Below, piece after piece: positions 13,365 through 60,258 of a stretch of 64,000 bases of DNA. The notes beneath the pieces were generated by a model that worked only from the letters and a program-made list of their open reading frames with translations, was not told the DNA's origin and did not search any database. The stretch is taken from the NCBI RefSeq assembly GCF_030503435.1, contig NZ_JAUKPO010000001.1, forward strand, positions 1-64,000. Direction: 5' to 3'. Position 1 is the first letter of the stretch. Each line of letters starts with the position of its first letter. The DNA comes from Rhodocytophaga aerolata. Its GTDB lineage: Bacteria > Bacteroidota > Bacteroidia > Cytophagales > 172606-1. Position numbers and translations under genes: made by a program.

Positions 13365-13427
13365 GATGCTCATTCATTAGTTTAATTAACTTAAGGTTTT
13401 AAGTACAAAATACTAATTTTTCTACGC

Positions 13428-14540: not shown

Positions 14541-14553
14541 TTAGATTTAGCAT

Positions 14554-15669: not shown

Positions 15670-15676
15670 TATACAT

Positions 15677-17412: not shown

Positions 17413-17464
17413 AAAACCACTACGGCTGCTTGACTAAGCCCTAGCTAAGGTGTAGCTTTCTCGT

Positions 17465-18048: not shown

Positions 18049-21000
18049 CTACACTTTCTTTTCCTTAACAGTATCGTATTCCAGTCCGCTATTGGCTTCT
18101 CCATGACCATTCTGTACTCTGCGGCCCAGCCAGGTAAATACCGCTCCATTCATCCAACGAGTTCGATGCCATGAACGCTTGACGATAACACCTGACCGTG
18201 GCACCTCTTCCTCGTGCAGGAAATAAGGCCCCCAGGTGTCGGTGGTAGGATCATAGCCTGTACGCAGTAATTCAGTGCGTGGACGAATACGCTTAGGGGC
18301 CTGGCCTGGGATCAAACGGGGCATTGCCGCCCTGCGGAGTTGGATCTGACGACTGTTAACCCCTCCTTTGCGCATAGGAATGAAGGGAATCCAGTGTTCG
18401 GGTACGGTAGTTCCTAATTGATATTGGATCTCCGCATTATTAGGTGCGGGAGGTGGAGATGCAGGAGGTGGTGTGGTGATACTTACCAGGTAATTATACA
18501 GCTTACGTGAGGCATCCCATCCCTCCTCGTGACCTCCCAGCCCATCCGGAATAACTATTTCGATACCCCACACCATATTGGCCATTTCATCACGGAGTAG
18601 ATTTACATGTTCAACTGGTTCACTTTCCATTGTACGTACCACAGCTGGAGGAACGTACAACCGGGTATCTGCAGATCCTGAGATAAAATCTCTGCGTTTG
18701 AGATTAAACATCGACCATCGCTTCCAATCTGTGTTATCACCAGACCCAGCGGCCTGTACTGATGTATATTGCCCAAAAACATCCTGCACTACCAGGTTGT
18801 GTATGTTACACAAACTACCCACCTCCACATCATAGGGTAACAACATCCAATCGTTGCTGTAGATCAAAGCAAACTCTGCTAACAGTAACTTAGGAATTTC
18901 ATTAATATTGGCTTTGATAGACCCAATATCTACTTTGAAATCTTCAAATTGCCACCAACGAGGGAGAGGCATACCAGGAAATGATAGGTCTGATGGCAAC
19001 ACTGAGATCAACTTCCGCTGAACCAGGCTTAGATCTGGTGTGCCACTGGCGAGCGAGCTATGGTATTTTGAGGCATCAATTTCAAAATCAAAGCTGAACC
19101 AATCCAGGCGTCCACTGGCATATTCAGTGGTGGTCAGGATGGTAGTAGAGGATGTGCCGGAAGGAGCAGAACTATGGAACTGGTACTCCAATTGAGATGG
19201 ATTCCATGCAGAGTCTGCCGCAGTTACCGGCTGATTATATACCGTCTCAAACCAGGTCATAAAAGCCGTAGCCGCATCATTGACTCGATTGAGTGCTGTA
19301 GCATTCGTGGTGGAGGAAACTAAAGAAGATGCTACAGTACCCTCCTTGAGGATTCTGTAAACAGCGCCCCCATCTAACATTCTGCCTATTCCGATGGCAG
19401 CGTATGTTTTTAATAAGGCAGGATTGCTATATATTTCCGGGAATTGCTCAGCAGGCGTGGGTAAGGTAAACTGCAGGGAACCGGTATTACGAAAATCTGA
19501 CTTGATACCATCTATCGTAGACTGCGGTATGGCTCCGGGAATTTCCGACAGTTTAGCCTGTATCAACCGCCCAAAATGACGTCCCATTTCCTGTCGCATG
19601 GTCAAATCAATTTGCACTGGTTCGCGCTCTACAACTGTCTCCATCGGGATGGTATTCTGATAAGCTTTGGCTGTATCACCTCTCAATGAATACCGGTTTA
19701 CCTGGGTGGTTTCCATGTCAACTCGCATTTCCATGGCAGAACCCGTATCTTCCCCTTTAAATTCCCCAAATTGCCACTGGCGGCTCAGAAACCACAGGGA
19801 ATCCCGCACTTCGGCACGCAGAGCGCGGGAGAAATCCTGTGTTCTGGGTCTGGCTTCCAGACGGTTCCACGAAAGAAGAGCAGGCCGGTGCAACTCCATA
19901 CCTACCTGGAGGAGCAATTGATCTATAAACCGGTCTGTCACAAAAGCTGAAGATACACGGTAGGTAAAATACGCTTTATCATTCTCTTGCCCTTCAAGCA
20001 TCCGGTTTACCAATTGTGTATCTTCATTCTCAATAAGTGCAAAAAAGGTAGTAAATTGCACCTTATTGACCATATTCTCACGAAACTCAACTGTATCTCC
20101 CTCGAAGACACCATTCTTGTATTCTTTCAGCCCAATAAATTGTGAAAAGCGTTGGAACCTGCTTTTTACAGGTCCTTCTTTAAGGGTATAATAAGCCAGG
20201 AGGTTCCAGGTCAGCGATCGCTTAGCATCGTAATCCATAGCATAGGCATCCGAATTCCCAGTAAGTGAGGCGGGAGGAGAGAAGTCAGTATAGCGGGCAG
20301 TAAGGTCTTCCTGATCAATCCTGAAATCATCATCTTTTCCGATACGGTGATCACGAAGGTACTGGAAAGTTGAGTTCCCCAATCCCAGCAAATAGGTAGC
20401 AAATGCCTGGTTGGATTCAAGGCGCACCTTGTCATTCCCAGTATCTACTCCAGAGGGATGAAGTCTGGCATCTAACCCGGCCAATACCACCTGCATATTC
20501 ACCCAGGATGCTCCAATTTTCACTACTGCTTTTTGTCGTATGAGGGATACCGCTGCTATCAAATCCCGCTTGATACCCCATTCTACAGGAATATTAACTT
20601 CTTTGGCCCCGGGAATGACTTTATTCCAATCCAGTTTGCTTTTCTTTTGCTGCCAGGTAGGTATTTCATCATCAAAGTAAAGCTTCCGCACTGCAGTAAG
20701 TACATTGTCGGCTGCCATCCCTTTCTGTAAACCAGAAAGCTCCAGGGTACTTAGGGCAAGAATATATTGATCGAACTCCTGCCCCAGACCAGTAGGTACA
20801 GGAGCCCGGAGATGCACAAAAGTATAGACCAGGTCATGCAATTTATCTTCTCCAAAATAAGGGATATTCTCTAACTGGGACAGATCGGTAAACCTCCCGC
20901 CGAGTTTTTTTCGCTGATCCAGGATACGTTGCGCTACCTTTAGCCCAATATCGTATCCTTTGCCACCCACTCGGCCTGTTCTACGTGTAGGATCATCAAT

Positions 21001-21141: not shown

Positions 21142-21168
21142 AATATATTCCGATTGAGGTTCACCCGC

Positions 21169-24100
21169 TTATTCCGGGTTTTGAAATTCAATGTTGAATT
21201 TCTTAAAGTCCTTAAGTTTTATCAGGTCGAATATGCCCGGTTTTGGTTTTTCAATGATATTACGCCCGAAGTCCAGATTGGGGGTATCCTCTGATCCACT
21301 TACTGGCGCATAGATGGCAGGCAGCACCTGGGCGTAAAAGGTTTTATTCAACTGATCGGGATCAACAGCACGTTTTTTCGCCCATTCCAGGGTTTCGGAA
21401 AGTGTATCCATCAGGTCGTCCCAAGACCAGCTACCATTCAAATCAGGGGAGACCGCCAGAAGACAAGTCTGCGGAGGTTCCGAATTTGGGTTATTGTAGT
21501 GCACTGCTACTCCTGTGTGTGCAGTTTTCTCAGGAATCTCTTCTACCCAACTGTCTAACATGATCCCCGCCTGTAATCCTATAACCGAATATCCTTCATG
21601 GGTTTGGAAAACAAAAGCAATATTGTCGTCTGGTATATCATAATCTGGTGGAAACTTCATCCCCAGCCAGCGCATAGCCACATCACCATTGCTGTCAAGC
21701 GGTTCCATGGGCAGTTGTGCCAGAGACAGCGATAGATGACTGTCCGTTCCTTTCAGTGCCTGGGAAAGGAGACCTGCCTGGTGAAAGGCACGTATGTGGC
21801 TACGCACAGGAGAAAGTCCCTGCAACCATTCCTCCTTGGCATGAGGACCGGCAAAAGCCAGGTAATCATCGTAACCAAAGGCTGCATCCAAGGAACCTTC
21901 ATTATACAGGCGATATTCCGGATATACCCGAAATGGCCGGCCAAACAAATTTTGTGCTGCCTGGCTTAATAAGGGTACTTTCTGGTCCTCTGAGACAGCA
22001 GTGGATACTTCTCCCAATAACCGCACTGCCTCCCCATGCCGAGGCTGTAGTTCGGCCAATACTCTATCGCTTAGTGCCAGTAGTTCCTCTGCTGTTGCCT
22101 CCGTAGTTTCTAAGGCCTTTTTTGGCATCGCATTCTGTGCACCGAAATTTGCGGCATTGATTAAAGCATTACGTATGGGTGTCAGTAGCTCTCCTCCCGG
22201 CTCATAAATACCAGTAGTAGAGATAATGTTTCTTATATTTGTCATCTCTGAGCTGAGGTCTGCAATTGTACCTTCCAGTCCACTTTTACCATTGCTCATC
22301 GTAAGACCAGCCACATCATTGAGGCGAGCCAACATCAGACTGGTATCCACTCCTTTGGCAGGATTGGCAGCAATCAATTCCTCTGCACCGGTAGGCAGAA
22401 GAAAGTCCTTGGGATCAAGGGCACGGCTACTTCCCAGAACCTCTTTCAACCGATCGATCAGAGATTGTAATTCAAATAGAGAAACCTGGACAGGACTGAA
22501 CCCTGAACGGTCCGTAAAGGCAATCTCAATAGTAACATTGTCGGCTGCCAATACCTCCTTCCGTATGTGATATCCAATCCGGTCTACCAATTCTATAGCT
22601 TCTCCTTGCTCTGAGGGCTGGGACAGGATATAGTATAAATCGATGGGCTCAATGCTAATATCTCCCAACGTCAAACGATCCTCATACACGGATCCGGGAG
22701 TACCGTCAAAGGCGAGAAATCGGTATCTGTAATTGACTAATAGATTTTCCTTGTCAGGCAGCATGGCAGCAAGCCAGCGATTCAGATGGGGCTCAGCTAC
22801 TGAACGTGGTGTTCCCTGTGGCGTCCATAGTTTATGTCCATTAGCGCTGAGATCAAATTGAATGCCCATCCGCTGGGATATAACATGGTAGTTCCGGGGG
22901 GTATTGATCACCTCTGGATCTACCACTACACTTTGCCCGCTCATGGCGTTAAGGGCTCCGTTGGCCCTGGTGAAGTTACCCTGCACTATCTGGTACATCG
23001 CCTCTGACATCATCAGATCATTGATAGCGTCCAGGGTATTGTGAAGCTGGGTAACCTCACTAATGATCGCTGATTTAGCCTCTCCTGTGTTGGGAAGGCC
23101 GGTCACACCGTAGGGGTAATCTGTAACTGGACTACGGCTATTCTCCACCAGAGCCAGCCCATTTACTACGTTATAGGCCTCAGCCGTATCAATACTGGTC
23201 ACCCCATTACTTCCGGTCACCCTACCAGCTACCAAAGGAAATTTTAATCTGATTTCCAGAATGAATGCATCCAGTCCTATATCCCGGTCGTGCAGGCCTC
23301 GTTCGAATTGATAACCCAGCAGAGCACCCAATTCCTGCCCGTTTTTTAAACCTTCAAGAAAAAACAGGGCCCGGCGTACGCGATCTGAGCTTAAGTTAAC
23401 AGCCATCGTATCGCCTGCAGAACCGGTGTTTATCTTGTGTGTTTCATAACCGGCTCTCAGTATGGCAGCTGTCGTAGCATGGTTGATCGATGGTGCATGA
23501 ATATATCCCATATTACCAGGATCGGCCCTGGGGCTATGAATGAATTTATCTTTCACCGGATCGTAAGTAATATTGCCTACTGTATCAGTGCCCAGATAAA
23601 TATATTGAGGCCCCAAGTTATCCAGGATGGGCACCTCCATGATCAGTGGGTTATCTACTATTACTGTAGATATACCCTCTTTGATGCTGAGCCTTTTACC
23701 TCCGGTTACCATGAGATTTTCGACAGTGGCATCATTTGAATTACCTGGATTATCCATCGACGCAGTTGAGGCAGAGCCGCCAGTCGTTTCGTCAGTCACA
23801 CGAATTTTTCCCTTCAGGCTTTCCCTGAACAACCAGGGTTTAACAGGCGTTATTTTGCCTGGAATGTCCACCCCTTCTACTATAATATCTTTGAACCCCG
23901 GTACCAGAATTTCATCGGGTTGAATACTGACTTCTCTGTAATGTATACCCTTGAAGCTTCCGGGCCGCAAGTCTTCCAGCCAGGAAAAAGCTCCCAAATA
24001 GATTCCGGTGGTCCTTTGTTCCCCACCCCTCCGCTGTTGATGAAGACGTTCCAGCACCAGGCTGTAAAACCAGGCGTCAAGGCGGTAAGATGCCAAGTCT

Positions 24101-26913
24101 ACATGTTCGGCAAAGCACCTTTCCAGTCGGGCTGTGGGAAGATCTTTCAGGCATTGCATACCCGATATCAATTCTTTTATTTCCAGTAGATCCGGGTCAA
24201 CAGTCGGCTTCAAAATTTCCTTATAAATGTGTTCCGAGAGGGTGACGTCTTTCAGGAATTCATATCTTTCGGTGAGGATTTTGGTCTTACTGACGGTTGT
24301 TTTAAGGGTAGCCATCACATTTTCCACTTCCCGGGCAATATCTTCCTCAAATTTGGACGTAGCTTCCGCTTTCAACCAGGACTTGAAAACTGCTTTTTCT
24401 GTATTGAGCAATTTCAGGTTCATTCCTTCCAGCACTCCTGTGGCAGCCCGGCGCTCGAATTCCTCCTGCACCTTCTGATTCAGTTCTTTTTCCAGTTGCA
24501 TCCCATGTCTGAAATGGACTTGTGCCCTGACAAGGTTTCTCATCTCAGGTGAGGCCTGTCCCTGCACACTCACATTCATAAGTTCAGTATCAAGGAAAGC
24601 GGTGTTATCCAGTACACCATGATTTACCAAAATCGTCACTCCTGTACGAACATATTCCAGTAAGGCGGCATGCCGCAGCATCAGATACAACAAAGCTGTA
24701 GGCGGAGGGGCACCAGTTGCTCCGATATTGGAAAAGTTTTCAGCTTTGATCTCTTCCCAGTTACTCTGAATCAGCCAGTCAATATAGTTTTCTTCATTGC
24801 TACCCAAAGCCTGGATCGTGCGTAATTCTGAAAGGGGCAGGGTATCGATCACCGGACCGTTAAGATACTTATGCTCATTAACATAGTAAACATCAAAGAG
24901 GCGGGGTGGAAAAATGAAGTCAAAATTCTGATCTCCAAAGAGTTGAAGGAAATTCAGCGATGTAGCATAGGGAGCTGCAGTTGGTTTAACAAATACGCCC
25001 TTGATGATAGCACTGTAATTGTAGAGGTTCCAGAGGAAGTAAGGACCGGCAATAAAGCGCTGATAAAATTCAACGCTGGAAGCATGGAGCCCCATAATAC
25101 TGAGAAACTTATCATCAGCGTTGGCTCCTGTGGTGGCGGAACCCGCATGTTTGGTTTGTTGGACGAGTGAATCCCAGGTTGATTCCATATTTTTCAGTAC
25201 CTTCTCAAACATATTCCCCAGGAATACATCATTGGGAGTGTTGTCTTTATACTTCCATTTAGTAAAGGCTGTGACAGGTAAGATACCGTACGGCTGATCA
25301 TCAACCCTGATGGCAGGTATCCTACCGCGTCCCAATATATACTGGTTGAAGTGATTCCGTGTGCGGGAAATATCAATGGTGGAAAAAATGGGATGCATCA
25401 TTTGTGATAGATAATACCCTAAGGTAGTTGGCCACAATGCCCGGTTCATGCATATGGCTTCCCTGATATCAGCGCGGTCGGCATGGCGGATATGCTGGAC
25501 CACATCGTAGGAAATGCCCAACGCATCAGCCAAGCGCTGACCATCGGTTTGATCCAGGTCATTGGAAGTTTCAGTGAAGAGGGGATCCTCTAATTCGAGA
25601 TCAAAAAGATCCTCTTCGTCACTGTTGTAAGCTGTATATCCTGATTTGGCATCCTCAGTGTTATTGGTAGGAGTACCCTGTGGCACAATAGAAAACCCTC
25701 CATGTGTATAATGATGATTATTGATCAGTTCTTCCAGCAATGCTTGTCCTTCTTCTTGATTTGCAGATATTTTTACGCCAAGAATTAAAATTTTGTCAAA
25801 CCCTATGAACCTCTCCGAGCCCAGCAGGGGTACACGGATACCCATTCCGATTTTTTCAGCCTCTTCAAAATCATGCATCCAACGCAGCTTTTCTGCCAAA
25901 GTGAGGCCGCTGTCCTTACTTTCTATCTCATTTTCAGCAGCCTGAGGATCAATACTGAGCTGTAAGGAATCAGGTATGGGTTCTCCCACCACCTCACGGA
26001 AATGACCGCCTGTATAGAGGCGGACTACAAACCGCTCAGGCAATACTTTTGAATGCGGTGCCTGACTCCATGCGCTTTCTTTTACCGGAAGGGTAGGAAA
26101 TATCGGATCAACCGGAAGGTCCAGATCCGGATCTATCGTAGAAGCTGGTTTATCTTGTGAATTGGTGGGTTCCATTTGCTTGGCAATCCAGGCTGCCCGT
26201 TCCGGTCCACGACCCGATACTAACCCCCGCCACGCCCCAATTCGTAATGCCTCGTCCTCTCCAGCATACCAGATGTGAACCCAAAAAGTTTTAGCAGCCT
26301 CAATCTCACTGGGTGTAAGGGCTTCTTCGTGGGTATGCACGGCGATATCATCCGGAAAGATACGGACCCATAATTCATGTGCATCATCAATCACTGGAAG
26401 TGCTTTTCGGCTTTCAAATAAGTCTTTCACCTGAAAGGAAAGCGGCTGGGAAACTGCCCGCCCTCCCACTACAGTAAATGCTGAGGCTTCGGTTCTTCTC
26501 CTGGTTTTATCCCGGCTCACCCGGACAATATGTTTGATGGTCATAAACCGGGCCTCTATCCGTACAGGCATCAAAAATACAGGATAAGCATCATCCAGTT
26601 GAGTAATCTGATCGCGTGGATCGGTAGAAAGGAGGAGTTCATCTATCAGGCGGGAAATATCAGCTTCGGTGTTAGCTACCTCTGACCTGATGGTGGTTAC
26701 CTTATCGGCAAGCTTTTTCTGATTGGCATTCAACAGGTTCACCGTCCTGCGATTTGCTCCAGAGCCTTTCGATAATTCCTGCTTTAGGGATCGTTCTATA
26801 GTGGCCAGTTCGGCGATAGTTTTTTGAAGGTTCCGCTGTTTTTTCTGCAATAGCTTTCTGCTAGAGGAAGCCTTTTTTTGAAGCGAAATGAACTTTGTTT
26901 TATTGATAGCCAT
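21169..26913 (-). CDS. Giant-operon protein, 1914 aa, unknown function
   Basis: The largest protein of the window. Residues 1-95 form a long coiled coil (QKKASSSRKLLQKKQRNLQ, EVANTEADISRLIDELL). It is followed by a beta-rich domain (FPVFLMPVRIEARF) with the conserved segment LWVRIFPDDIAVHTHEEALT and RAAWIAKQM. A long helical middle follows. Near the C-terminus lie HEGYSVIGLQAGIMLDSWVE and TGVAVHYNNPNSEPPQTCLL, patterns I have seen in other uncharacterised giant proteins but cannot name. No signal peptide, membrane helix or catalytic signature is evident. It is preceded by a 46-bp gap and followed by a 27-bp gap within the operon. A structural or scaffold role, perhaps with the 1017- and 1030-aa proteins, is inferred only from size, coiled coil and context. 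Confidence 0.8.
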   Translation of the reverse strand: MAINKTKFISLQKKASSSRKLLQKKQRNLQKTIAELATIERSLKQELSKGSGANRRTVNLLNANQKKLADKVTTIRSEVANTEADISRLIDELLLSTDPRDQITQLDDAYPVFLMPVRIEARFMTIKHIVRVSRDKTRRRTEASAFTVVGGRAVSQPLSFQVKDLFESRKALPVIDDAHELWVRIFPDDIAVHTHEEALTPSEIEAAKTFWVHIWYAGEDEALRIGAWRGLVSGRGPERAAWIAKQMEPTNSQDKPASTIDPDLDLPVDPIFPTLPVKESAWSQAPHSKVLPERFVVRLYTGGHFREVVGEPIPDSLQLSIDPQAAENEIESKDSGLTLAEKLRWMHDFEEAEKIGMGIRVPLLGSERFIGFDKILILGVKISANQEEGQALLEELINNHHYTHGGFSIVPQGTPTNNTEDAKSGYTAYNSDEEDLFDLELEDPLFTETSNDLDQTDGQRLADALGISYDVVQHIRHADRADIREAICMNRALWPTTLGYYLSQMMHPIFSTIDISRTRNHFNQYILGRGRIPAIRVDDQPYGILPVTAFTKWKYKDNTPNDVFLGNMFEKVLKNMESTWDSLVQQTKHAGSATTGANADDKFLSIMGLHASSVEFYQRFIAGPYFLWNLYNYSAIIKGVFVKPTAAPYATSLNFLQLFGDQNFDFIFPPRLFDVYYVNEHKYLNGPVIDTLPLSELRTIQALGSNEENYIDWLIQSNWEEIKAENFSNIGATGAPPPTALLYLMLRHAALLEYVRTGVTILVNHGVLDNTAFLDTELMNVSVQGQASPEMRNLVRAQVHFRHGMQLEKELNQKVQEEFERRAATGVLEGMNLKLLNTEKAVFKSWLKAEATSKFEEDIAREVENVMATLKTTVSKTKILTERYEFLKDVTLSEHIYKEILKPTVDPDLLEIKELISGMQCLKDLPTARLERCFAEHVDLASYRLDAWFYSLVLERLHQQRRGGEQRTTGIYLGAFSWLEDLRPGSFKGIHYREVSIQPDEILVPGFKDIIVEGVDIPGKITPVKPWLFRESLKGKIRVTDETTGGSASTASMDNPGNSNDATVENLMVTGGKRLSIKEGISTVIVDNPLIMEVPILDNLGPQYIYLGTDTVGNITYDPVKDKFIHSPRADPGNMGYIHAPSINHATTAAILRAGYETHKINTGSAGDTMAVNLSSDRVRRALFFLEGLKNGQELGALLGYQFERGLHDRDIGLDAFILEIRLKFPLVAGRVTGSNGVTSIDTAEAYNVVNGLALVENSRSPVTDYPYGVTGLPNTGEAKSAIISEVTQLHNTLDAINDLMMSEAMYQIVQGNFTRANGALNAMSGQSVVVDPEVINTPRNYHVISQRMGIQFDLSANGHKLWTPQGTPRSVAEPHLNRWLAAMLPDKENLLVNYRYRFLAFDGTPGSVYEDRLTLGDISIEPIDLYYILSQPSEQGEAIELVDRIGYHIRKEVLAADNVTIEIAFTDRSGFSPVQVSLFELQSLIDRLKEVLGSSRALDPKDFLLPTGAEELIAANPAKGVDTSLMLARLNDVAGLTMSNGKSGLEGTIADLSSEMTNIRNIISTTGIYEPGGELLTPIRNALINAANFGAQNAMPKKALETTEATAEELLALSDRVLAELQPRHGEAVRLLGEVSTAVSEDQKVPLLSQAAQNLFGRPFRVYPEYRLYNEGSLDAAFGYDDYLAFAGPHAKEEWLQGLSPVRSHIRAFHQAGLLSQALKGTDSHLSLSLAQLPMEPLDSNGDVAMRWLGMKFPPDYDIPDDNIAFVFQTHEGYSVIGLQAGIMLDSWVEEIPEKTAHTGVAVHYNNPNSEPPQTCLLAVSPDLNGSWSWDDLMDTLSETLEWAKKRAVDPDQLNKTFYAQVLPAIYAPVSGSEDTPNLDFGRNIIEKPKPGIFDLIKLKDFKKFNIEFQNPE

Positions 26914-26959
26914 AGGTCTTTTTCATTTTATTCGCGAACCAGCTTTCGGATACATCCTT

Positions 26960-29900: not shown

Positions 29901-30013
29901 CCTCCTGTAGGAACAGTGGTGAAATTGTTAAAATTTTCCGCTTCTTCAATCTTGACGGAAAGCCCCCGGTGCATCCAGGGAAGAAAGGCATATCTGGCTA
30001 ATACATCGCTCAT
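26960..30013 (-). CDS. Giant-operon protein, 1017 aa, unknown function
   Basis: A soluble mixed alpha/beta protein without signal peptide. It begins LARYAFLPWMHRGLSVKIEE and has GWTVERPQIEVKVNI, then a conserved stretch around VIIKTEPRHWVTNFEPNFFP, a D-F-PWRYTPA segment and LRPWLLLLALKADEF (residues about 95-160). Later parts include HKLIYQKLIFDGLGYMVPPA and a C-terminal W-rich, Asn-rich end. It starts two bases after the 1144-aa gene stops (30016/30013), so translation is probably coupled. The Trp/Pro-rich conserved blocks suggest a large structured enzyme or a baseplate/scaffold component, with no evidence to choose. I do not recognise the family by name. Confidence 0.8.
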   Translation of the reverse strand: MSDVLARYAFLPWMHRGLSVKIEEAENFNNFTTVPTGGWTVERPQIEVKVNIEAKKGDQTANDHVNQIISLVGPGDITGIDPRVIIKTEPRHWVTNFEPNFFPYIEFYEEDFPWRYTPASATGNKLRPWLLLLALKADEFKRDTAQFGPLPSILVLGHEDDPPDTTGAASGVFPNAAQIWAWTHVHLNGDLDPTNNLDPTNQSDLDKALNRFRQLLAANPDQAVSRMICPRKLEPNTSYYCFLMPAYETGRLAGLGVDASIIATHNAQEASFGVDHNTDEDHSAYVDHFPYYYEWHFMTGDVGDFESLVRKLVPREVDPRVGTRTMDVQEPGFNINFDPGPPHNDGVLMLEGALLPPGGTSNREPYPWSNATPSINYRRKLAQLLNLSEDLMAATFPSNQFYGTNPFGYEGPAEDIKDDPIITPELYGRWHALKNTLDTTTAALSNNNTWLYDLNLDPRSRTVAGLGVKHVKNNQEKLMDKAWEQLGEVLEANRKIRWGQFSQQVSFAAYAKHLKSQQAEQANAIASRLFRKVKLGTTTAFKQVKDSALPDATQSFTYRRIERPYGPVMRRLDPNKTIFAQNALRISLANKSKVAVDPKTFSQMQGLLPRSDVHSDVSTIADYLIRTSNFSPTNPDADRITPDMEAEVRFKAAIENYHDYFATDNWIDVADKNALNLSILTTQVVEEVNPLFTIHKLIYQKLIFDGLGYMVPPADKIVPIMAYPVFQEPMYETVRVLGIDFLVPNLHLIPNNTVTLLESNQRFVEAFMVGANHEMGRELLWREYPTDQRGSYFRQFWDSSDMVNNSGLSEKELAAQSLDIEEIHTWASNTQLGTHNARPGVPDTGLLVLVIRGDLLKKFPDTIIYAQQAKFKAGSNHLKDPRELDTAIEYPMFSARIEPDINFFGFNLTAEQAKGDREADDPGWFFIIQERPGEIRFGIDVGGSSTAPITWNGLNQNNAPFSGLYLNASDNAVTTSGTGGNEINGKPVNWGFNSTNFAQILYQNPVLLAVHGDEMIP

Positions 30014-30015
30014 GT

Positions 30016-33000
30016 TTATACAAGTTCAAAAGCTGAAACAATATCAAGCTGACCTTCCAATTCCGGACGGTCCATCAGCAAGGCTTCCATCATCAATTGC
30101 GCTTCCTGCAAACTTGCTGCTGTGGTATTATCGAAGATGGAAAGATTATTACTATTGACAACCGCAAAATTTTCTTCGGCAACCTTAACCTTGGAAGGTG
30201 CCAGTGAGGAGATCTTTTTGGCTTTGGAGCCCAGTGCCGACCTGGCTGCCGAACCGTTGCGGATAAAGGCGTTAAATTGCATGACATCATAACTGACAAG
30301 TTCAGGCTTAGGATCCGGCCCATCCAAAATGATTTGTTCAAATTGAACTTCACGTTCCTGGAAGAAATCCGAAGTCAGTTTCGAAGCCCCTGTTCCTGTC
30401 AGGCCGCTATTATATTTCTCAAAAGAAGGTCTGCTGAGTCTGTCTGATTCAGAAAGCTTGAAGAAACTATCAGGGGCAAACTCCTCTTTCACAGGGGTAT
30501 CGGCTATATCTTTATCCTGAGCATCGACCATATCCAGGTGAAACAGCGTGAAATCGGCAGGTTTCTGTGTGCCAAACTTTTCAATATTGATATCAAGGGG
30601 AACAACCTTCTGACTCACGGTAAGGCTCCGGCTGGGATGTGCGATGATAGCTTCATCTGTGTTAGTGATACTGCGCAAGGATACCAGATTATCTAAATTC
30701 TGTTCACTGGCTTCCACAGGTGTGAGCCAGTTGGCTTTATTCAATAGAGCCTCTTTGAGTTGAGGCAGCACCTGAATATCAGGCAGGGAAGTATCCTTGG
30801 TATCCCCCCAAGTTCTTTCGATACTCACGCTGATCTTAATGAAGAACAGGATCTTGAATTTGATCCGGCCTGTGATATGCCATGGCGTGGGGCCTTCAAG
30901 CGACCCGGAAAGATGAATGCTCATTATTTCCTTGCTTCCTACGTAAACACCCAATCCGGCTGCAATAGAAATCTTGAAATAAAAAGGGTTAAACTGAAAG
31001 AGGGCATCGAAATAAAGGTAACCGATGACTTTGAATTTACTTACGGAAAAATAGAAGTCAACGCCTGCTCCAAACTGTACGGTGTTGGAAGTAACGGCGA
31101 AGTAGGAGGATATCGTCAGCCGAGGATTGCCGCTCATCAGGCTGATAGACAGGCGTTTCAGGCTGGGCAAATTCAGAGGGGGTGGCGTATAATCTGGATG
31201 AAACCCACCCACCGTAAAGAGAAAGTTGGGATTGTCGCCCCACGTAATCCGGAGCGCCATGTCACCTTCCAGTGTAAAAATAAGCAGTTTGGAATCAAAC
31301 AGGCTGGCATCGAACGTGATATACTTGGCCTCAAAATCGATGGTACCTACGAAATTGACTTGTAATTTCAGGATGGCTGCCTCCTCAGTGGGCAACACTA
31401 TTTTTATAACCCCTAAAATGGCCAGACGCACAGGATTAGGCACTTCCAGCATCAACCCGAGCTCAATGCTTATTAGGGTAGGTGTACCCCACCCAAGCAA
31501 TCCCATCGGACCGAAGGTATACCGCTGTTGTAACTGAGGAAAAACTTTCTCCAGATCGGTGATAATCTGGTTGGCATTGGCAATAGGATTGGAAGGAAAC
31601 AGGATATTATCTAGCGTATTGTCCCGTACCCCGGTCTGGAGAGCGAGCAAAACCATGGTGCGGTTAACCCCTACAATGCCACCTACACCATTTAAAGTGA
31701 AACCGAAGCCCAGTTGGATAGGCGTAAACTCCGCAGTAATCAGGAGTAATAGAGAAAATCCTGGACTGCCATCGGGATTTTTGGTAGTCAGCAACCCGAT
31801 CGCAGTAACGTTGACTACCTCTTTGATGGAAAGGTAAACGATCCCTGTATACCGTCCTTTCTCAAAATCGAAACTCAAAAAGCCTCCGCCTTTTACCACT
31901 CCGGCGTCTATGGCAAGTCCTATTCCGGTAGGAGGTTTGAAATCCACATTCAGGTCGGCAATTCCCATATTACCACTGTTGTTAGGTGGAAAGGTCAAAA
32001 TCGCTTTGATTCCCATATTTTCCACCACAGCAGCAAATGGACCTAATTGGAGCCCAATGTTGGCTCCTATGCCTAAAGGAATGCCCTCTGAACCAGCCTG
32101 AATCGATAGGATAACTGATTCGATCAACAGCGGACCGAGTTGCAAATGCGTAGGTAACTGGATCTCCAGTCCGCCACTGCCGTCAAAATAAAAGCCCCGT
32201 TCGCTGTCGTAACCGATGAGCAGGTTGAGATCGATGGATATACCGTCTTCAGGAAGGATTTTAGAGAGAAACCCATCAGGATTCCGGGGTTTGATGATGA
32301 TCTTGCCCTCCTGCAATTCCCCTTCCACATGAAATCGCCCTTGCGCTTCACCATCTCCAATGTTCCAGGTGAGTCCTACGCCTGCTTCAGCACGAAATTG
32401 TTTGAACTCAAAACGGCTGGCATCCGCCTCACCAATTAGAATATAAGGGGTTGCGGCCCCTCCTGGTCCTGGAACCGTGAAGGTGATGATGAAATCACCG
32501 TTAAATGGGCCGGCAGAGGGCGGCACCAGAGAAACATCACCGCTGGGCCGCAGTGTAATCCCAGCCTGTACTGGAATAGAAGCACCTAAATTGGCTGTCA
32601 GGTTCCAGTTATTATTGCCAATAGAAAGCGCCGCATCGGCACCGAAGGTCTCATGGATGAGTATGTTCAAACCCGGCAAAGGGCTGAGGCTGGTATTGGG
32701 AGTGATTTTCAGGAACAGAACGTCCAGTTCGGGAATGGAAGCATCATATATGGAGGGAAAACCTACGCCTAAAGCTAGTTTATGCAGCTTTTCCAACATA
32801 GTATGTCCGGTAAAGGAAGGTTTGCTCCAATCGTACAAGTTGGCCAGCAGGTTGTTAGGATTGTTGAAAAATTCCACGACATTGTTCAGATGCAGCTTGT
32901 ATCTGACATATTCAGGGAACACCGGATTGGAAGAACCTATATTCTGCACAGATCGCTCAATAAGGCCAAAAAACTCAAACCCGGCCACCATGGCTTCGGA

Positions 33001-33450
33001 TTTTCTTTCAAAATATTGGATGATCAGGTAGTCCAGTAAATTCCGGGCAAAATTGCCAATGAAAGCATCCAGTGCTACCTGCTCTCCGGCACTAAGCCCT
33101 CCCATGGGAAAGTCATCAAGTGCGTCTTTGACCGCCGTGAATTTTTGAATAGTGTCTGCAATCTTTTTAGCAAGGCCGATCGACTTTTCAGTCGCTGTAT
33201 CCCAATCTTCAGCTTCAATGGCATCAATCAAGGCCTTGACCAGGTCAGGCATGGCAGCAATATTGTTGACCAACCCCTCCATGGCGGAGGCAAAAGCTGG
33301 ATCTGATTTCAGAGACGCGGGGAATTGTATGCCCAACTCTGCCAAGAGCACCAACACTTCATCGTCGTCTACCCGCTGCTTGATAGGCTGAAGCATGTTT
33401 ACCATTTCAATGCCAATGGCATCCAGGGTGCCGGGGTTATTATCTGGCAT
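30016..33450 (-). CDS. DUF6603-type large beta-rich protein, 1144 aa
   Basis: The N-terminal 190 residues are helical. The remainder is an extended beta-rich region with repeating amphipathic strands. The segment GGGFLSFDFEKGRYTGIVYL followed by TAIGLLTTKNPDGSPGFSLL and PIQLGFGFTLNGVGGIVGVN matches my memory of the DUF6603 signature (a family of roughly 1000-residue proteins with no known function). The C-terminal 250 residues are polar and less ordered. No signal peptide. Long runs of alternating hydrophobic residues would suit a groove- or barrel-like surface, possibly binding lipid or a polymer, but this is speculation. Its start overlaps the upstream protease gene by 11 bp. Confidence 0.75.
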   Translation of the reverse strand: MPDNNPGTLDAIGIEMVNMLQPIKQRVDDDEVLVLLAELGIQFPASLKSDPAFASAMEGLVNNIAAMPDLVKALIDAIEAEDWDTATEKSIGLAKKIADTIQKFTAVKDALDDFPMGGLSAGEQVALDAFIGNFARNLLDYLIIQYFERKSEAMVAGFEFFGLIERSVQNIGSSNPVFPEYVRYKLHLNNVVEFFNNPNNLLANLYDWSKPSFTGHTMLEKLHKLALGVGFPSIYDASIPELDVLFLKITPNTSLSPLPGLNILIHETFGADAALSIGNNNWNLTANLGASIPVQAGITLRPSGDVSLVPPSAGPFNGDFIITFTVPGPGGAATPYILIGEADASRFEFKQFRAEAGVGLTWNIGDGEAQGRFHVEGELQEGKIIIKPRNPDGFLSKILPEDGISIDLNLLIGYDSERGFYFDGSGGLEIQLPTHLQLGPLLIESVILSIQAGSEGIPLGIGANIGLQLGPFAAVVENMGIKAILTFPPNNSGNMGIADLNVDFKPPTGIGLAIDAGVVKGGGFLSFDFEKGRYTGIVYLSIKEVVNVTAIGLLTTKNPDGSPGFSLLLLITAEFTPIQLGFGFTLNGVGGIVGVNRTMVLLALQTGVRDNTLDNILFPSNPIANANQIITDLEKVFPQLQQRYTFGPMGLLGWGTPTLISIELGLMLEVPNPVRLAILGVIKIVLPTEEAAILKLQVNFVGTIDFEAKYITFDASLFDSKLLIFTLEGDMALRITWGDNPNFLFTVGGFHPDYTPPPLNLPSLKRLSISLMSGNPRLTISSYFAVTSNTVQFGAGVDFYFSVSKFKVIGYLYFDALFQFNPFYFKISIAAGLGVYVGSKEIMSIHLSGSLEGPTPWHITGRIKFKILFFIKISVSIERTWGDTKDTSLPDIQVLPQLKEALLNKANWLTPVEASEQNLDNLVSLRSITNTDEAIIAHPSRSLTVSQKVVPLDINIEKFGTQKPADFTLFHLDMVDAQDKDIADTPVKEEFAPDSFFKLSESDRLSRPSFEKYNSGLTGTGASKLTSDFFQEREVQFEQIILDGPDPKPELVSYDVMQFNAFIRNGSAARSALGSKAKKISSLAPSKVKVAEENFAVVNSNNLSIFDNTTAASLQEAQLMMEALLMDRPELEGQLDIVSAFELV

Positions 33451-34927
33451 AAGCGCTGTTTTTATTCAGGGTACCACAATTCGGACAAAAAGCATGTTGC
33501 TCAAGAAGGTTATTCAGGGAATCGAGCCCGGTATACGCTTCGGCAAAGTTGAAAGCAGCAAGTGCATAATCTTCCACCGTCCTGGCGAGCTGGCGGCTGC
33601 CGTTCCTTTCCAGCACATCGCTCATTTTAATGAGCAGGTTATGGAAAGAGTAGCCATTGATGTCCCGGGGAATTTGATGTTCAGGTTCTCTCGCATTTTT
33701 TATTAGGTGCCCGACAAAGGAAGGCCCTTGGTAACGGTTCCAGGCAACTTTCACTTCACGGTTGTCATTGATTAGGTCGAGAACCTCATGGCGATTGTCA
33801 CGGATTACCTGGATCAACTCTTTACCTTTTTCTGTTCGCTGGAGTTGTTGTTCCATCCTGGCCAGAAAGGTCACAGGATGAGCATGAGGAAGGGCATCTG
33901 CTTCCACAGCGGAAAGTGGTATAGTGCCTGCCGTACCGGAAGACATCACGGCGATGCCCAATCTGTCAATAACCTGTGTAATACGGTTAGCGATGGATAA
34001 GTCCCCACTTCCGGAAAAGTGTAATCCTACCACCTGGTTAAGATTATTAACAATGGCAGAGCCTGAATCTCCAGGAGCAGAAAAACGAGGATACGGTGCA
34101 TTGGGTTTAACCCGGATCTGGTTGACATAAGTAATATGAATCGGATTGTCTTCCGTTCCGTAATTCACTGTTGGTGAATGGTTTATAATGTCGATAGTGC
34201 CTTCCGTAAAATGGGTAGTACGTCCCCTTTTCCGCACAATATCTCCGGGTATGGGAGCAGCACTGCCAAACACCGGCCCAATGTTGATGATCTTATTGGT
34301 GAATCTGGTTTCTTCATCATCTCCGGCATTCTGGCCATGCAGAATAGCAATTGCCGCATCTACAATATTTGGGGTTCCGACAGGAGGGGTTACTACTCCT
34401 ACTTGTCCGGCTGTAATCTTACCAATATCCCCACAGGCACAACAGCAGCATACTGAGGGTGCATCGGGATGACCAACCAGGTTACCAACGGCTCCATTCA
34501 TGCCAATAATGACATGATGATTGGTGAGCAAGTGTACTTTGGTATCGCCAGTCAGGGTCACAAAGCAACCCAGAGTTCCGAGCCCGCCGCCCGTTCCCTG
34601 CCCGCCAATCTGAATCCCGCCCCATAAGGGAGAATAAGCAGAGGTGTCTACCTGAATAGTATATATCCGGTATACCTGTACATCTGTAGGAACACCTCTT
34701 ATTTCTTTAGGAATCGTTTCTTCCGGTTTCAGAGCATTTGGATCCTTCTTTTCCTCTACATGGATGATGAAAGCAAATTGTTGCCTGAGTTTCCCTTCGG
34801 TTTCTTTCAGCCCCACATCCACACTTTTTACTCCCTTATACTTGGCCATAATTTCCTTGCGGACATCATCCAGCATGGCCACCAGCCGGTCGTGGATCTC
34901 AATGCGTTCCTGTCTTGACCATCCCAT
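33440..34927 (-). CDS. Trypsin-like serine protease with CCCC cluster, 495 aa
   Basis: A chymotrypsin-fold protease with the triad H138 (LLTNHHVI), D190 (NIVDAAIAIL) and S288 (SAPGDSGSAI). A short helical N-domain (residues 1-80) precedes it. Cysteines at 160-163 and 165 form an unusual CCCCAC cluster between His and Asp. Residues about 343-495 form a helical domain that resembles the separate 138-aa protein encoded next to it (shared LIN/D-NR.V...W.R..GP.F and NGSRQLARTVE-like segments). It ends with a CPNC pair. No signal peptide, so it may act in the cytoplasm or leave by a non-Sec route. It overlaps the 1144-aa gene by 11 bp. Substrates are unknown; the neighbouring giants are obvious candidates. 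Confidence 0.8.
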   Translation of the reverse strand: MGWSRQERIEIHDRLVAMLDDVRKEIMAKYKGVKSVDVGLKETEGKLRQQFAFIIHVEEKKDPNALKPEETIPKEIRGVPTDVQVYRIYTIQVDTSAYSPLWGGIQIGGQGTGGGLGTLGCFVTLTGDTKVHLLTNHHVIIGMNGAVGNLVGHPDAPSVCCCCACGDIGKITAGQVGVVTPPVGTPNIVDAAIAILHGQNAGDDEETRFTNKIINIGPVFGSAAPIPGDIVRKRGRTTHFTEGTIDIINHSPTVNYGTEDNPIHITYVNQIRVKPNAPYPRFSAPGDSGSAIVNNLNQVVGLHFSGSGDLSIANRITQVIDRLGIAVMSSGTAGTIPLSAVEADALPHAHPVTFLARMEQQLQRTEKGKELIQVIRDNRHEVLDLINDNREVKVAWNRYQGPSFVGHLIKNAREPEHQIPRDINGYSFHNLLIKMSDVLERNGSRQLARTVEDYALAAFNFAEAYTGLDSLNNLLEQHAFCPNCGTLNKNSAYAR

Positions 34928-34938
34928 GGTGATTCTGT

Positions 34939-35355
34939 TTATTTTGTACCCGGTGTAAACTCTGCATTTATTTTTTTTATCTCATCAAAAACCTGATGTA
35001 AACTGTTACAGCGCTGGGCCCAATTCAGCACCAGCACTGAATAATTGCCGATAGTCCGGGCCAGTGCAGGGCTTCCATTTTCCTGGAGAACCGCTGCCAT
35101 CCTCCGGAGTAGGGTGGTAAGTTGGATACCCTTTATTTCCCGGGGTACCTCAAAATCTTTTTCCATTCCGCTCCGCACAGCATGATTGATAAACTCTGGG
35201 CCCAGATTTCTATGCCAGATAACCATCACCTGCCGGTTGTGGTTGATCAGCATCATCACTTCTTCCACATGTTCTTCGAATATATCCCTGATCTGCCGAC
35301 CCAGCGGGGTAGCCACTAATTGTTCTTCGAGCACTTCCAGGCGATACATTTTCAT
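34939..35355 (-). CDS. 138-aa helical protein sharing the protease C-terminal domain
   Basis: A small helical protein: LEEQLVATPLGRQIRDIFEE, then EVMMLINHNRQVMVIWHRNL, GPEFINHAVR, VPREIKG and LRRMAAVLQENGSPALARTI. The same order of motifs is found in residues about 343-495 of the protease encoded 11 bp downstream (RTEKGKELIQVIRDNRHEVL, NREVKVAWNRYQGPSFVGHL, IPRDINGY, NGSRQLARTVEDY). It looks like a duplicated stand-alone version of the protease's C-terminal domain, perhaps an inhibitor, partner or adaptor. No other family recognised. Confidence 0.7.
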   Translation of the reverse strand: MKMYRLEVLEEQLVATPLGRQIRDIFEEHVEEVMMLINHNRQVMVIWHRNLGPEFINHAVRSGMEKDFEVPREIKGIQLTTLLRRMAAVLQENGSPALARTIGNYSVLVLNWAQRCNSLHQVFDEIKKINAEFTPGTK

Positions 35356-35359
35356 GTCT

Positions 35360-36001
35360 TTAGTTTAACTCATTTACCTTTTCAATCAAGATCTTTATTT
35401 CTTCCTGCTGTCCATGGGTTACAGAGTTTTCCAGGTTGTTCAGGTATGACAGCACTTTATCTTTTCCTCTAAGAATCTGGTACATAATACTTGCAATAAC
35501 CACCCGGGTAGAAGGGGCCTGATAGGTACGCACGGCATTAACCAGTGGCTGCAAAGCAGGCTCACCGATGCGAATAAGAGCTTCTGGCGGATCGGCCATC
35601 CGGTAAGGTATATCTTTTATACTCCCCATATAAGATACCTCCAATCGTCTGATGAGCAAGTCGATGGCCTCTGTTGCCACCATTTCTCCCAAAATGAACA
35701 CGGATGTAGCAGCTGCTTTTTTATCAGGATTGTCCTCTTCCAGGAAACTGATCATTTTTTTGATATACTGTTCCCGCTTTTTTGCTGAAGGCTCTTTCAA
35801 CACACAGTCTAACATCCTCAAACGGTATGGTTCATCCAGACCCAGGTCTCGGATGAGGGTAGATGGCTTACATCTGCATGGCTGAATGGAAATCGCATCA
35901 CCTACAATTCGGGTATTAGCCCATGCCGGTCCCGCCTTCATGACAAACAGATATAGCAGTATTAATCCTGTTAATTTTTGAGTCTGTTTCATCCTTTCCA
36001 T
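35360..36001 (-). CDS. Exported HEAT-like repeat protein
   Basis: A 213-residue protein with a Sec signal peptide (basic start, hydrophobic LTGLILLYLFVMKAGPAWAN, Ala-x-Ala-like cleavage near residue 28), making it the only operon member with an obvious export signal. The mature part is helical with HEAT/armadillo-like pairs (KKAAATSVFILGEMVATEAI, EALIRIGEPALQPLVNAVRT), plus a CRCKP segment. HEAT repeats usually bind proteins. The start overlaps the upstream HEAT gene by 13 bp, so translation is probably coupled. Confidence 0.7.
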   Translation of the reverse strand: MERMKQTQKLTGLILLYLFVMKAGPAWANTRIVGDAISIQPCRCKPSTLIRDLGLDEPYRLRMLDCVLKEPSAKKREQYIKKMISFLEEDNPDKKAAATSVFILGEMVATEAIDLLIRRLEVSYMGSIKDIPYRMADPPEALIRIGEPALQPLVNAVRTYQAPSTRVVIASIMYQILRGKDKVLSYLNNLENSVTHGQQEEIKILIEKVNELN

Positions 36002-36498
36002 TGTTTAAGCCCTTCAAAGGCATCATCGAACAATTTGGCATCTTCGGGCTTTCGCTGAGCAAGTATCCTTTCCAATGTTTGCTTGACTTCGCTTTTACTC
36101 TGGGTAAGATTAAAAAGCATGATGGTTGCCAGGGTTATTCGTTCAGTATCTACAGCAGATTCCAGAATCTCTTCCACGGCGGGTCTCGCTTTGGCTCCTA
36201 TTTCAAGTAGAGCTGTTTCGGGCTCATACTTTAACGATGGGTTTTTGTCGGATGGTGGAATTAAATTAGTGCCCACCATTGTCTTAAGATCTGGTATCGC
36301 TTTTTCTGCTTTTAATTTTCCTAACATATAAGCTGCTGTTGCCTGTGCTACCAGGCCTGCCGTTTCTAATCGCAAAACAGCGATTAAGCTTTGGATCAGT
36401 TCCTGATCTTCTTTGCTTTCCGGTGTATCAAGGATATGTTGTACGTACTCTCTACGGAGAGGGCTTTCATGCTTTATCTTATCGAGGTCTATTTTCAT
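35989..36498 (-). CDS. HEAT-like repeat protein, 169 aa
   Basis: A helical repeat protein (VAQATAAYMLGKLKAEKAIP, ETALLEIGAKARPAVEEILE) built like the 213-aa neighbour but without a signal peptide. Three or four helix pairs with conserved Ala/Gly packing positions are visible. It starts two bases after the 820-aa protease gene stops and overlaps the next gene by 13 bp, so it is firmly in the operon. A likely protein-protein adaptor; partner unknown. Confidence 0.7.
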   Translation of the reverse strand: MKIDLDKIKHESPLRREYVQHILDTPESKEDQELIQSLIAVLRLETAGLVAQATAAYMLGKLKAEKAIPDLKTMVGTNLIPPSDKNPSLKYEPETALLEIGAKARPAVEEILESAVDTERITLATIMLFNLTQSKSEVKQTLERILAQRKPEDAKLFDDAFEGLKQWKG

Positions 36499-36500
36499 GA

Positions 36501-38963
36501 CTAAGAAATTGTAATTTTTACAATATCAGGCAAACTTTCGTGATCACCCGCCGAACGGGGAAGTCCTTGTGTATTGTCTCGTATTACCACGCTGAATTCT
36601 AATGCACCGGCTGCTGCCGGAGCGGTAAAGGTTACTTTCTTTTTTGCTCCTCCATCGCTCAGAACAACCGGATCTCCCGAAGTTTTCGTCCATTGGAAAG
36701 AAAGAATCTGATCATTATTTGCATCGCTTTCTGTGGCTTCCAAAGTAACAACCGCTCCCTGTGCTACGGCCTGATCTGCCCCTGCATTTACGGCCGGCCT
36801 GCTATTTGGAATAGTTTCTGTAGTTGTACCAGCGCCTATATTGCTTGGAGTGTCCGCCCTTGCATCTGGTAATTTGGCTGTTATATTGCAGAACCAGGGG
36901 ATATATTCTGTAATACGTATCCAAGTTGTGCCGTTATGGAATTCGATATACTCTCTGAAGTCATCTCTGTAATATCCTTGCTTATGCCCGGTACGATTAA
37001 AACCTGGCTCATCAATTCTAAAGAACATGTTTGGTTTTGCATCGCTGGGATATTGGGCATCACCTGCATCTGCATCACCATCATTGGCAAATGCCTGAGA
37101 TGTATGTGTTCGATGGGGGGAGGCTGTGTTTTGAAACCCATCGGTAAACGCATTCTCTCTTCGCATCACACAATCAGCTTTGCTACCAACACCTCCTGCC
37201 GAACCTCTTCCCATTTGAAAGTTTATTCCTCTTGTGCTCCACTTGATCCCTGTAGGAAGAATAGACCACTTCACTTCAATCTTGCCTGCATAACGGGTCG
37301 CCCCAAAATCTCCTGGATTCACAAATCCTGCTTTATTAGTTTGGGTTCCTGTACCAACAGAAAACCTTAATGAATCATCAGCATGTAGGTTAGCTGAGGT
37401 ATTCACAACTTCATTTTTGATCTTAAATATTGTTCGCTGGATGCGTTTCGTCACTCCACCCTGGGTAGCCTCAACAAAGGCGGCCTGAGCTGCAGTGACT
37501 CCCGGGGAATGGGTATCGAACCGAACCTTTATGTTTGCCCTTCCGTTAGCAGTCATGGCATTGGTTTCTATAATTAGCCCTGCTATCCTTCCTTTACTTA
37601 CATTCCAATCGCAATTACCAGCAAAACCAAAGTCAGAGGCCTTGAATTCCTCGACCGGATTAAGGACAGTATTCGCTTGTCCACCCGGCCAAGCATTCCA
37701 GTTGACAACAATTACTGCCGCACTTGATGTGGAAGAAGCAGAGCTGCCAGGTACATCATGAATTCCATTGGATGAGCTGGAACTTCCTGAAGAATTAGCC
37801 GAGATCGAACTGCTGGACGAAGAAGAGCTCAATGAACGGCTACTTGAGGAAGATGAACTCCTGGACGAAGAACTCAGCGAAGAAGGACAAGACGAAGAAC
37901 AGGAGGATGAAGGGATGGCCAGGCCTCCAGCACCGGAGCCGGCGATGGTAATGCCTAAGGCACTCATGACAGGGCCGATGTGGCTAGCCACGCCATGGGT
38001 GCGGGTAAGCTGCACCTTACTAGGTGTCTCTCTATCTGGGGTCGCCGGGTTATCAAGAACTCCCAAATAGTCCTGATCGCTTCGGATGGCAGCCCAAAGC
38101 AGACCTACTACTTGCATGGCATCGTTGACCAGCACTGCCCCAGAATCACCGAAATCGGCAAATGACCTACCCGGAGTATCGCTTCGAATCAGGAGCTGGC
38201 TGCCATCGTAAAGCACATCTACCACCGTGCCTTCGGTAAGTTGGGTGGCTGCCCCCCGCTTTCGCACCCGTTCGCAGCAAACAGCCTGCGCCACACCAGT
38301 GATATCACCGATCCCTTCGATGCGATTGGTGAGACCATCGTTGGTGATGGCGGTGCGGAAATCGGCCTCCAGGGTTACAAGGGCACAATCTACAGTGGCA
38401 TCTTTCCGGGCTGAGTGGACCTCTCCGAATTCATTAAATGTACAACAGCAGCAACATTTGATATACCGGGGTTGTCCGATTTCTATGCCGACGGCATTGG
38501 GGTCTCCAGGGTCGTGCACTCCATCATCAACTACATGATGGCAGGTGAGGCCTTTCAATTCTCCGGAAGCGGTGTGGGTAACAATCAATCCCAGGGTGCC
38601 GGTACCCCGGATGGTTTCGCCCTCATTCTGGTACCGTTGGTTGCGGATCATGACCCCTCCGCGCAACGGCCGGTATGTGGTGAAATCAGCAACCTTGTAG
38701 GTTTCCCCTTTTTCCAAGACATCGGTTTTTATACCCATTACCTTCTGGGGTATGGTGTCGGCAGGTGCTAGTTCTCCCAGCGATCTTTTCTTCTTTACAT
38801 ATACCCGGAAGCATAGCTCATGTGTGAGGTCACCCTTCACTTCTTTCACCCCAACGCCAACGTGATCTACACCAGGATATTTTATAAGCTGGGGTTCAAC
38901 CATGCCATGCAGTCGAACTAAGCGCTCCTGTTCAAGTAGCATTACCTTTTTTGTTCCAGTCAT
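36501..38963 (-). CDS. Trypsin-like protease with Ser-rich linker and PKD-like end, 820 aa
   Basis: The first gene of the operon proper. Residues 1-340 are a chymotrypsin-fold protease preceded by a helical/beta N-domain: triad H143 (LTCHHVV), D192 (ATVDCALV) and S274 (DFGDSGAVLV). Five consecutive cysteines lie at 170-174. A linker of about 50 residues, almost all Ser with a few Cys/Arg, follows at about 352-400. Then comes a beta-rich domain (NWNAWPGGQANTVLNP...) and a C-terminal Ig/PKD-like domain (AGADQAVAQGAVVTLEATES...FQWTKTSGDPVVLSDGG). No signal peptide is found at the chosen ATG. Such Ser linkers and PKD domains are typical of surface or secreted enzymes, so an unusual export route is possible. 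It is paralogous to the 495-aa protease. Confidence 0.8.
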   Translation of the reverse strand: MTGTKKVMLLEQERLVRLHGMVEPQLIKYPGVDHVGVGVKEVKGDLTHELCFRVYVKKKRSLGELAPADTIPQKVMGIKTDVLEKGETYKVADFTTYRPLRGGVMIRNQRYQNEGETIRGTGTLGLIVTHTASGELKGLTCHHVVDDGVHDPGDPNAVGIEIGQPRYIKCCCCCTFNEFGEVHSARKDATVDCALVTLEADFRTAITNDGLTNRIEGIGDITGVAQAVCCERVRKRGAATQLTEGTVVDVLYDGSQLLIRSDTPGRSFADFGDSGAVLVNDAMQVVGLLWAAIRSDQDYLGVLDNPATPDRETPSKVQLTRTHGVASHIGPVMSALGITIAGSGAGGLAIPSSSCSSSCPSSLSSSSRSSSSSSSRSLSSSSSSSSISANSSGSSSSSNGIHDVPGSSASSTSSAAVIVVNWNAWPGGQANTVLNPVEEFKASDFGFAGNCDWNVSKGRIAGLIIETNAMTANGRANIKVRFDTHSPGVTAAQAAFVEATQGGVTKRIQRTIFKIKNEVVNTSANLHADDSLRFSVGTGTQTNKAGFVNPGDFGATRYAGKIEVKWSILPTGIKWSTRGINFQMGRGSAGGVGSKADCVMRRENAFTDGFQNTASPHRTHTSQAFANDGDADAGDAQYPSDAKPNMFFRIDEPGFNRTGHKQGYYRDDFREYIEFHNGTTWIRITEYIPWFCNITAKLPDARADTPSNIGAGTTTETIPNSRPAVNAGADQAVAQGAVVTLEATESDANNDQILSFQWTKTSGDPVVLSDGGAKKKVTFTAPAAAGALEFSVVIRDNTQGLPRSAGDHESLPDIVKITIS

Positions 38964-60257: not shown

Positions 60258-60258
60258 A

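Follow-up and report, generated by a model that had tools for sequence, protein, structure and literature searches.

The window, as the whole stretch of 64,000 nucleotides of Rhodocytophaga aerolata DNA analysed here is called, carries at 18049-38963 nine closely spaced ORFs on the minus strand, 2-46 nt apart or overlapping by 11 or 13 nt, exactly as a first, sequence-only reading had placed them. The genes are lettered A to I from downstream to upstream. A (18049-21141, 1030 amino acids), B (21169-26913, 1914 amino acids) and C (26960-30013, 1017 amino acids) code three large core proteins that the same reading could not assign, and none of them has a Pfam family above cut-off; the top match is that of A to HHH_3 (19.3 bits, cut-off 27). 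D (30016-33450, 1144 amino acids), the fourth core protein, had been recognized as DUF6603-type and is a full member of that family (PF20248; E-value 1.4e-138, 463 bits against a Pfam cut-off of 27). At E 0.01 neither PADLOC nor PHROG matches any of A to D, and none of them comes near an NCBIfam cut-off. Conservation of A is limited to residues ~400-1030, and its amino-terminal part, which bears the weak HHH motif, is peculiar to the window and its near relatives.

Upstream of D, gene E (33440-34927, 495 amino acids) codes a trypsin-like protease and gene I (36501-38963, 820 amino acids) a second one, which features a Ser-rich linker and a carboxyl-terminal PKD domain. The two had been read as paralogues and are such: they share 37% identity over E residues 12-305, and the catalytic triad of E (H138, D190, S288) is kept in all 21 aligned trypsin-type proteins, I included. 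Their Pfam Trypsin matches lie below cut-off, and PHROG 20754, annotated 'protease', matches both (E-values 1.7e-33 for E and 7.8e-29 for I). The PKD-like domain reported in I is genuine (41.7 bits, Pfam cut-off 27). Towards its carboxyl terminus E has a helical-looking domain of ~98 amino acids (residues 358-455, 33563..33856 on the minus strand), and F (34939-35355, 138 amino acids), singled out earlier as a small partner-like protein, is a free-standing copy of this domain with 36% identity to it. G (35360-36001, 213 amino acids) and H (35989-36498, 169 amino acids) resemble each other, as expected from their description as two HEAT-like proteins, but their HEAT matches are weak and under the Pfam cut-off. 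By a crude rule G alone among the nine proteins has a signal-peptide-like start, in agreement with the remark that almost none of them would carry one.

In the organism's own genome no second amino-terminal half of D is found, and the relatives of E are I and F only. A 44-residue piece resembling the carboxyl terminus of A lies on contig C110 (L142, ~28989-29120), with the other genes of the block absent from the 18 kb read around it.

Just downstream of A the window has IS66-type transposon genes on the plus strand (16685-17860; TnpB and the start of the transposase C gene), the last of which ends early and looks truncated. A plus-strand run of four genes at 12744-16354 codes an MTH865-like protein, an unassigned protein of 370 amino acids, a squalene-hopene-cyclase-like toroid and a protein of 225 amino acids made of two similar halves. 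A TraG/TraD-like conjugation coupling protein (56241-58352, plus strand) and an IS110-type transposase (45039-46070) are signs of mobile DNA in the window. The minus strand codes a protein of 1196 amino acids with clostripain (C11) and CHAT peptidase domains on one chain (49625-53215), and a UvrD-like helicase adjoining an OLD-like ATPase/TOPRIM protein (58491-62355), a pair which we take to recall the Gabija-type defence pair.

The C family was scanned against GTDB genomes, which gave 168 confirmed loci, and the best 80 of these 168 were analysed. Six-frame translation finds D, C, B and A all present in 68 of the 80, a recurrence showing that the block is not a product of chance, and in all 68 of these they lie on a single strand and run D-C-B-A. 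Of the 12 remaining loci, eleven reach a contig end or come near it (~1 kb is left after B in L035). L064 is permuted: C-B-A are followed by an M64-type enzyme gene that overlaps D by four bases and so still touches it. Median intergenic distances are -4 nt for D-C, 20 nt for C-B and 1 nt for B-A. Judged by their record titles, the best 80 of the 168 loci spread over 12 named phyla and one Candidatus Aminicenantes (39 loci in Bacteroidota, 16 in Pseudomonadota, 6 in Actinomycetota, 5 in Chloroflexota, 4 in Cyanobacteriota, 2 in Myxococcota, 2 in Balneolota and one in each of five further phyla). Within the window's own phylum C occurs in 8 of 395 genomes, and A in exactly the same 8.

The block consists of two parts, a fixed core D-C-B-A and the genes before it. 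The proposal of an undescribed multi-protein system of giants with a DUF6603 protein is borne out by the constant order and the shared genomes. The further idea that all nine products belong together holds for D-C-B-A, but not for the genes upstream of E: the nine do not form a single conserved unit, I, H, G and F being accessories. In L035, L037 and L068, too, the enzyme gene is preceded by a trypsin-like paralogue and by the helical domain standing free, and L035 has a G/H-like gene as well. The neighbourhood comparison suggested at the outset finds DUF6603 in all of the best 80 of 168 loci except L096, whose contig ends before C; homologues of the giants do, on the other hand, stand in loci without a protease.

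DUF6603 also occurs in a second kind of locus. A search of 296 genomes of the phylum gives 13 with a match (own genome included), 12 of them over the cut-off. Eleven further DUF6603 loci were read: five have C, B and A beside D in the same order, and six are of the second type (L025-L034; G157, G039, G166, G099, G048, G065). In these the DUF6603 protein is longer (~1290-3220 amino acids), the gene after it contains a small C-like piece, and the genes beyond are uncharacterised as well. The constant part of D is homologous between the two types (476 columns, hhalign probability 99.5%), and the gene that follows has an 83-column piece in common with C (85.6%), whereas the later genes have no detectable relation to B or A.

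Among plasmids, 13 records match the C family, four from haloarchaea, and six of the 13 were read (L124, L125, L130, L126, L128 and L129). In L124 and L125, from haloarchaea, and in L130, from Rhizobium, D, C, B and A are all recognised by profile, some of them as two pieces; in the Streptomyces records L126, L128 and L129 one of the four is missed by the ORF filter and an annotated gene occupies its place. Splitting of B, C or D in two or three ORFs, by frameshift or as true splitting, is seen in L041, L058, L036, L124 and L130. The plasmids of Streptomyces europaeiscabiei (L126) and Rhizobium lusitanum (L130) carry tyrosine recombinase/integrase genes near D-C-B-A, on both sides in L126. IMG/VR, searched with the DUF6603 protein of the window, yielded no confirmed relative. 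The C family also matches MT835531.1 (L127), whose portion read holds B and A and which is named 'Bacteriophage sp.'; this faecal record is marked UNVERIFIED, its other genes look actinobacterial, and it is probably a mislabelled bacterial contig rather than a phage.

The gene that stands before D, E in the window, is called X. The ORF list has an ORF before D in 72 of the best 80 of 168 loci, 69 times on D's strand, with a median gap of 2 nt. Among the opposite-strand cases, antisense ORFs hid an M64-like gene in L053 and a trypsin-like gene in L112; L103 (Pedobacter), one of the best 80 of 168, has D-C-B-A without X adjoining D. In the other eight loci D is absent, cut by a contig end or hidden in the ORF list, and two of these have a recognizable gene before D, trypsin-like in L056 and M64-like in L064. 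Classes were defined by clustering 77 proteins, which gave 21 trypsin-like proteins (window E and I included), 12 PhoD-like, 10 of a class named U1, 10 subtilases and 8 M64 peptidases, the rest being smaller groups or singles. Pfam, run on 20 representatives, identifies subtilases in L094, L050 and L084 (the last placed with the subtilases on this match), M64 peptidases in L060 and L063, a tyrosinase in L099 and galactose-oxidase-like proteins in L042 and L043; the PhoD-like match is below cut-off in L041 and the archaeal X of L125 is above it. L104, from Chitinophaga filiformis DSM 527, belongs to the PhoD-like class. L048, clustered with M64, has no Pfam match. The U1 class has no match in Pfam (L066, L085, L039) or PDB and features conserved His and GCR-x-G stretches, which presumably recall caspase-like peptidases.

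On a tree of C, built from 79 of the best 80 loci (one C shorter than 800 amino acids was excluded) and the window, the nine X classes need 28 changes, compared to a minimum of 8 and a mean of 41 after shuffling, with 15 classless rows uncounted. Enzymes have therefore been exchanged many times on related cores. L036, inside the starred four-row clade of the window, has a tyrosinase as X. The carboxyl-terminal domain of E does not follow X throughout: it is confined to trypsin-type X and some subtilase-type X and is absent from D and from the remaining X classes, a distribution that rules out a universal docking tag on X.

The exchange of enzymes extends into D. Residues ~491-1144 (30016..31980, minus strand), which include most of the DUF6603 match, form a constant part that evolves with C, B and A, and residues 1-~490 (31981..33450, minus strand) form an exchangeable part that co-segregates with the enzyme class. 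X changes class 9 times on a tree of D 1-485 and 27 times on a tree of D 520-1144, the minimum being 8; both trees use the same 54 of 59 rows, the five without a class being excluded, and the enzymes of L053 and L112, identified late, have no class in the trees. The fit to the D 1-485 tree is imperfect, M64 needing three changes and U1 two. Trypsin-type D amino termini of Bacteroidota, Pseudomonadota, Chloroflexota, Myxococcota and Planctomycetota form one starred group. Same-class pairs exceed other pairs in identity by 0.07-0.14 over D 1-500; the excess is 0.01-0.05 in D beyond residue 480, in C and in A. A sliding profile breaks near residues 480-500 of the window D. Samples taken at intervals along C and A give no same-class signal like that of the amino-terminal part of D; in B an excess of 0.15 is found in one of 16 sampled stretches (121-160).

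Close relatives locate the junction. D of L095 (Methylococcales, trypsin) and of L099 (Nitrosomonas ureae, tyrosinase) are 24.7% identical over residues 1-485 and 94.4% over residues 500-1144. Comparison of 11 locus pairs as DNA finds nine in which similarity begins within D, at residues ~400-540; eight of these have different or unclassed X and one, L095/L102, has like X. In the latter pair, both trypsin-type, D breaks too (37.2% versus 80.1% identity), so exchange also occurs within one class. L038 and L056, a control pair with like X, are similar all through X and D as expected, and the pair L078/L100 is uninformative since a contig starts inside D. L036 (tyrosinase) and L035 (trypsin type), both from the window's clade, are divided at the same junction. 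D is a mosaic; the gene order and co-occurrence, the enzyme exchange, this mosaic structure and the place of the junction are direct observations. As the first ~490 residues of D follow the class of X and the remainder does not, the swapped unit is the enzyme plus this stretch of D, and judging by the co-variation D 1-~490 is probably an enzyme-specific adaptor.

The predicted structure of D (59 sequences; pLDDT 81.1, pTM 0.51) is mostly helical to residue 230 and continues as a beta-meander to ~890, with weak fold matches to barrel-like proteins (porins, LptD, ushers) or ApoB-like ones. Its longer strands are mostly amphipathic; this was dropped as a sign of a membrane barrel, being also a property of soluble beta proteins. 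Outer-membrane beta-barrels are marked by a signal peptide and by a host with an outer membrane. The window D has no signal-like start, and D is also present in Actinomycetota and haloarchaea, whose outer membrane is absent or of another kind; an outer-membrane pore is therefore not the general answer. C is well modelled (pLDDT 81.7, pTM 0.67) and its model has no good match among solved structures. Transmembrane-like segments, mostly two in mid-chain, are predicted in 52 of the 80 C relatives (best 80 of 168) and not in the window C. By the crude rule none of 80 C, 75 B and 68 A proteins has a signal-like start, but 6 of 73 D proteins do, as do 9 of the 77 in the X set, one of which is window G, so the lack of export signals is not universal. 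Two haloarchaeal A proteins have lamin-tail domains; in one Streptomyces, C has an FG-GAP domain and the gene preceding D codes a peptidoglycan-binding domain. These domains and the PKD domain are usual outside the cytoplasm; they point there and favour an assembly for carrying, display or delivery. The surface or extracellular location first suggested for the products gains indirect support from them. No known transport part is recognised in A to D.

On balance we lean towards D-C-B-A being a fixed assembly of four proteins by which the enzyme X is carried, displayed or delivered, a reading drawn from gene order and co-variation. Its body would total ~5,100 residues, loaded with X, here the protease E. 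D would be the coupling part: the exchanged unit comprises X and half of D, and most simply that half would fit the enzyme, as an adaptor, chaperone or cradle, and the rest, with its DUF6603 part, would join C, B and A in the fixed body. The same body would be re-armed by exchanging X together with the amino-terminal half of D, through recombination within conserved D. That the four proteins form one assembly, that the amino-terminal half of D binds X and that the work is done outside the cytoplasm we infer from sequence comparison. The co-segregation of D with enzyme class could also come from linkage, or from inhibition of the enzyme rather than loading of cargo.

The main rival is an intracellular conflict or suicide system of the kind with effector-associated domains, in which X would be a cell-damaging effector, the helical domain of E and F a homotypic adaptor, and D-C-B-A a sensor or scaffold freeing X upon phage infection or stress. 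Trypsin-like effectors with the same adaptor copied in a second gene are described in PMC8195603. The locus has the same layout, a small helical-looking domain fused to a trypsin-like enzyme and free in the neighbour gene; this holds for E and F and for the trypsin-type loci L035, L037 and L068, but not for most X classes, many of which lack the small domain, as D does. The defence idea, already raised by the sequence-only reading, fits this paired domain and the scattered occurrence (8 of 395 genomes), but PADLOC has no match for any of the nine window proteins. No NTPase motif (Walker A) is found in window A-I; among relatives of the core it occurs in 1 of 59 D, 3 of 56 C, 3 of 41 B and 0 of 43 A. 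X moreover includes tyrosinase, galactose-oxidase-like and PhoD-like enzymes, which are unusual as suicide effectors, and we regard a conflict system as unlikely.

Alternatively, nothing would be delivered: X might be the catalytic subunit, and D-C-B-A the scaffold, of a static multi-enzyme complex on the cell surface or outside the cell that serves nutrition or changes the matrix. Every named X class is a hydrolase or oxidase, and the fused domains are usual on cell surfaces, which suits such a complex; but window A-E have no recognised anchoring or export signal and a scaffold alone leaves the joint exchange of X and half of D unexplained, and this reading seems improbable to us. The earlier suggestion, of giants built into a surface or extracellular assembly that the proteases process and mature, fares worst. 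The operon does code two trypsin-like proteases that look active, and L035, L037 and L068 retain the second trypsin-like gene with the free helical domain. Yet non-proteases (tyrosinases, galactose-oxidase-like proteins, PhoD-like phosphatases) precede the same core, even in the window's clade, where L036 has a tyrosinase, so that maturation as the general role is not supported, and we hold this reading very improbable.

The carrying or delivering assembly preferred here shares its logic with known systems. Contractile injection systems, T6SS and Tc complexes are likewise made of several large co-encoded proteins with exchangeable cargo, often with a cargo-specific adaptor. Neither Pfam, searched up to E 1, nor PHROGs, up to E 0.01, gives window A-D a homologue of sheath, tube or baseplate proteins, and in Pfam window A-I have no match to TcA, TcB or Rhs-type domains. 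According to PMC3482391, polymorphic toxin systems (CDI, Rhs and others) combine a constant carrier with an exchangeable active part recombined at a conserved junction. The arrangement described here is alike in these three respects, but differs in that the exchangeable half of D is amino-terminal and the enzyme a separate gene, where such systems have the toxin as a variable carboxyl-terminal domain of the carrier; the enzymes are peptidases, phosphatases and oxidases, and none of A-D matches a family of such systems. The median gap of 2 nt leaves no room for an immunity gene between X and D, and clustering of neighbours finds no common small gene before X, these being the two sites considered for an immunity gene. 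In the literature searched, no paper names DUF6603 or PF20248. D-C-B-A with X is rated a new gene system: the known systems share its logic and not its parts, as far as tested. Whether it amounts to a new class of protein-carrying or protein-delivering nanomachine of bacteria and archaea, unrelated to known secretion and injection systems and re-armed by X with an enzyme-specific half of D, we put forward tentatively, as a possibility somewhat short of even.

It is rare for a four-protein module of ~5,100 residues to be conserved across many phyla and in two domains of life and yet to have no functional family in the libraries searched, and DUF6603 gains a context from this module. The mosaic D provides a directly testable rule, namely which half should recognise the enzyme. 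If D-C-B-A is a carrier or injector, it would be a new kind among protein transport systems, and its cargo enzymes could be found by gene position.
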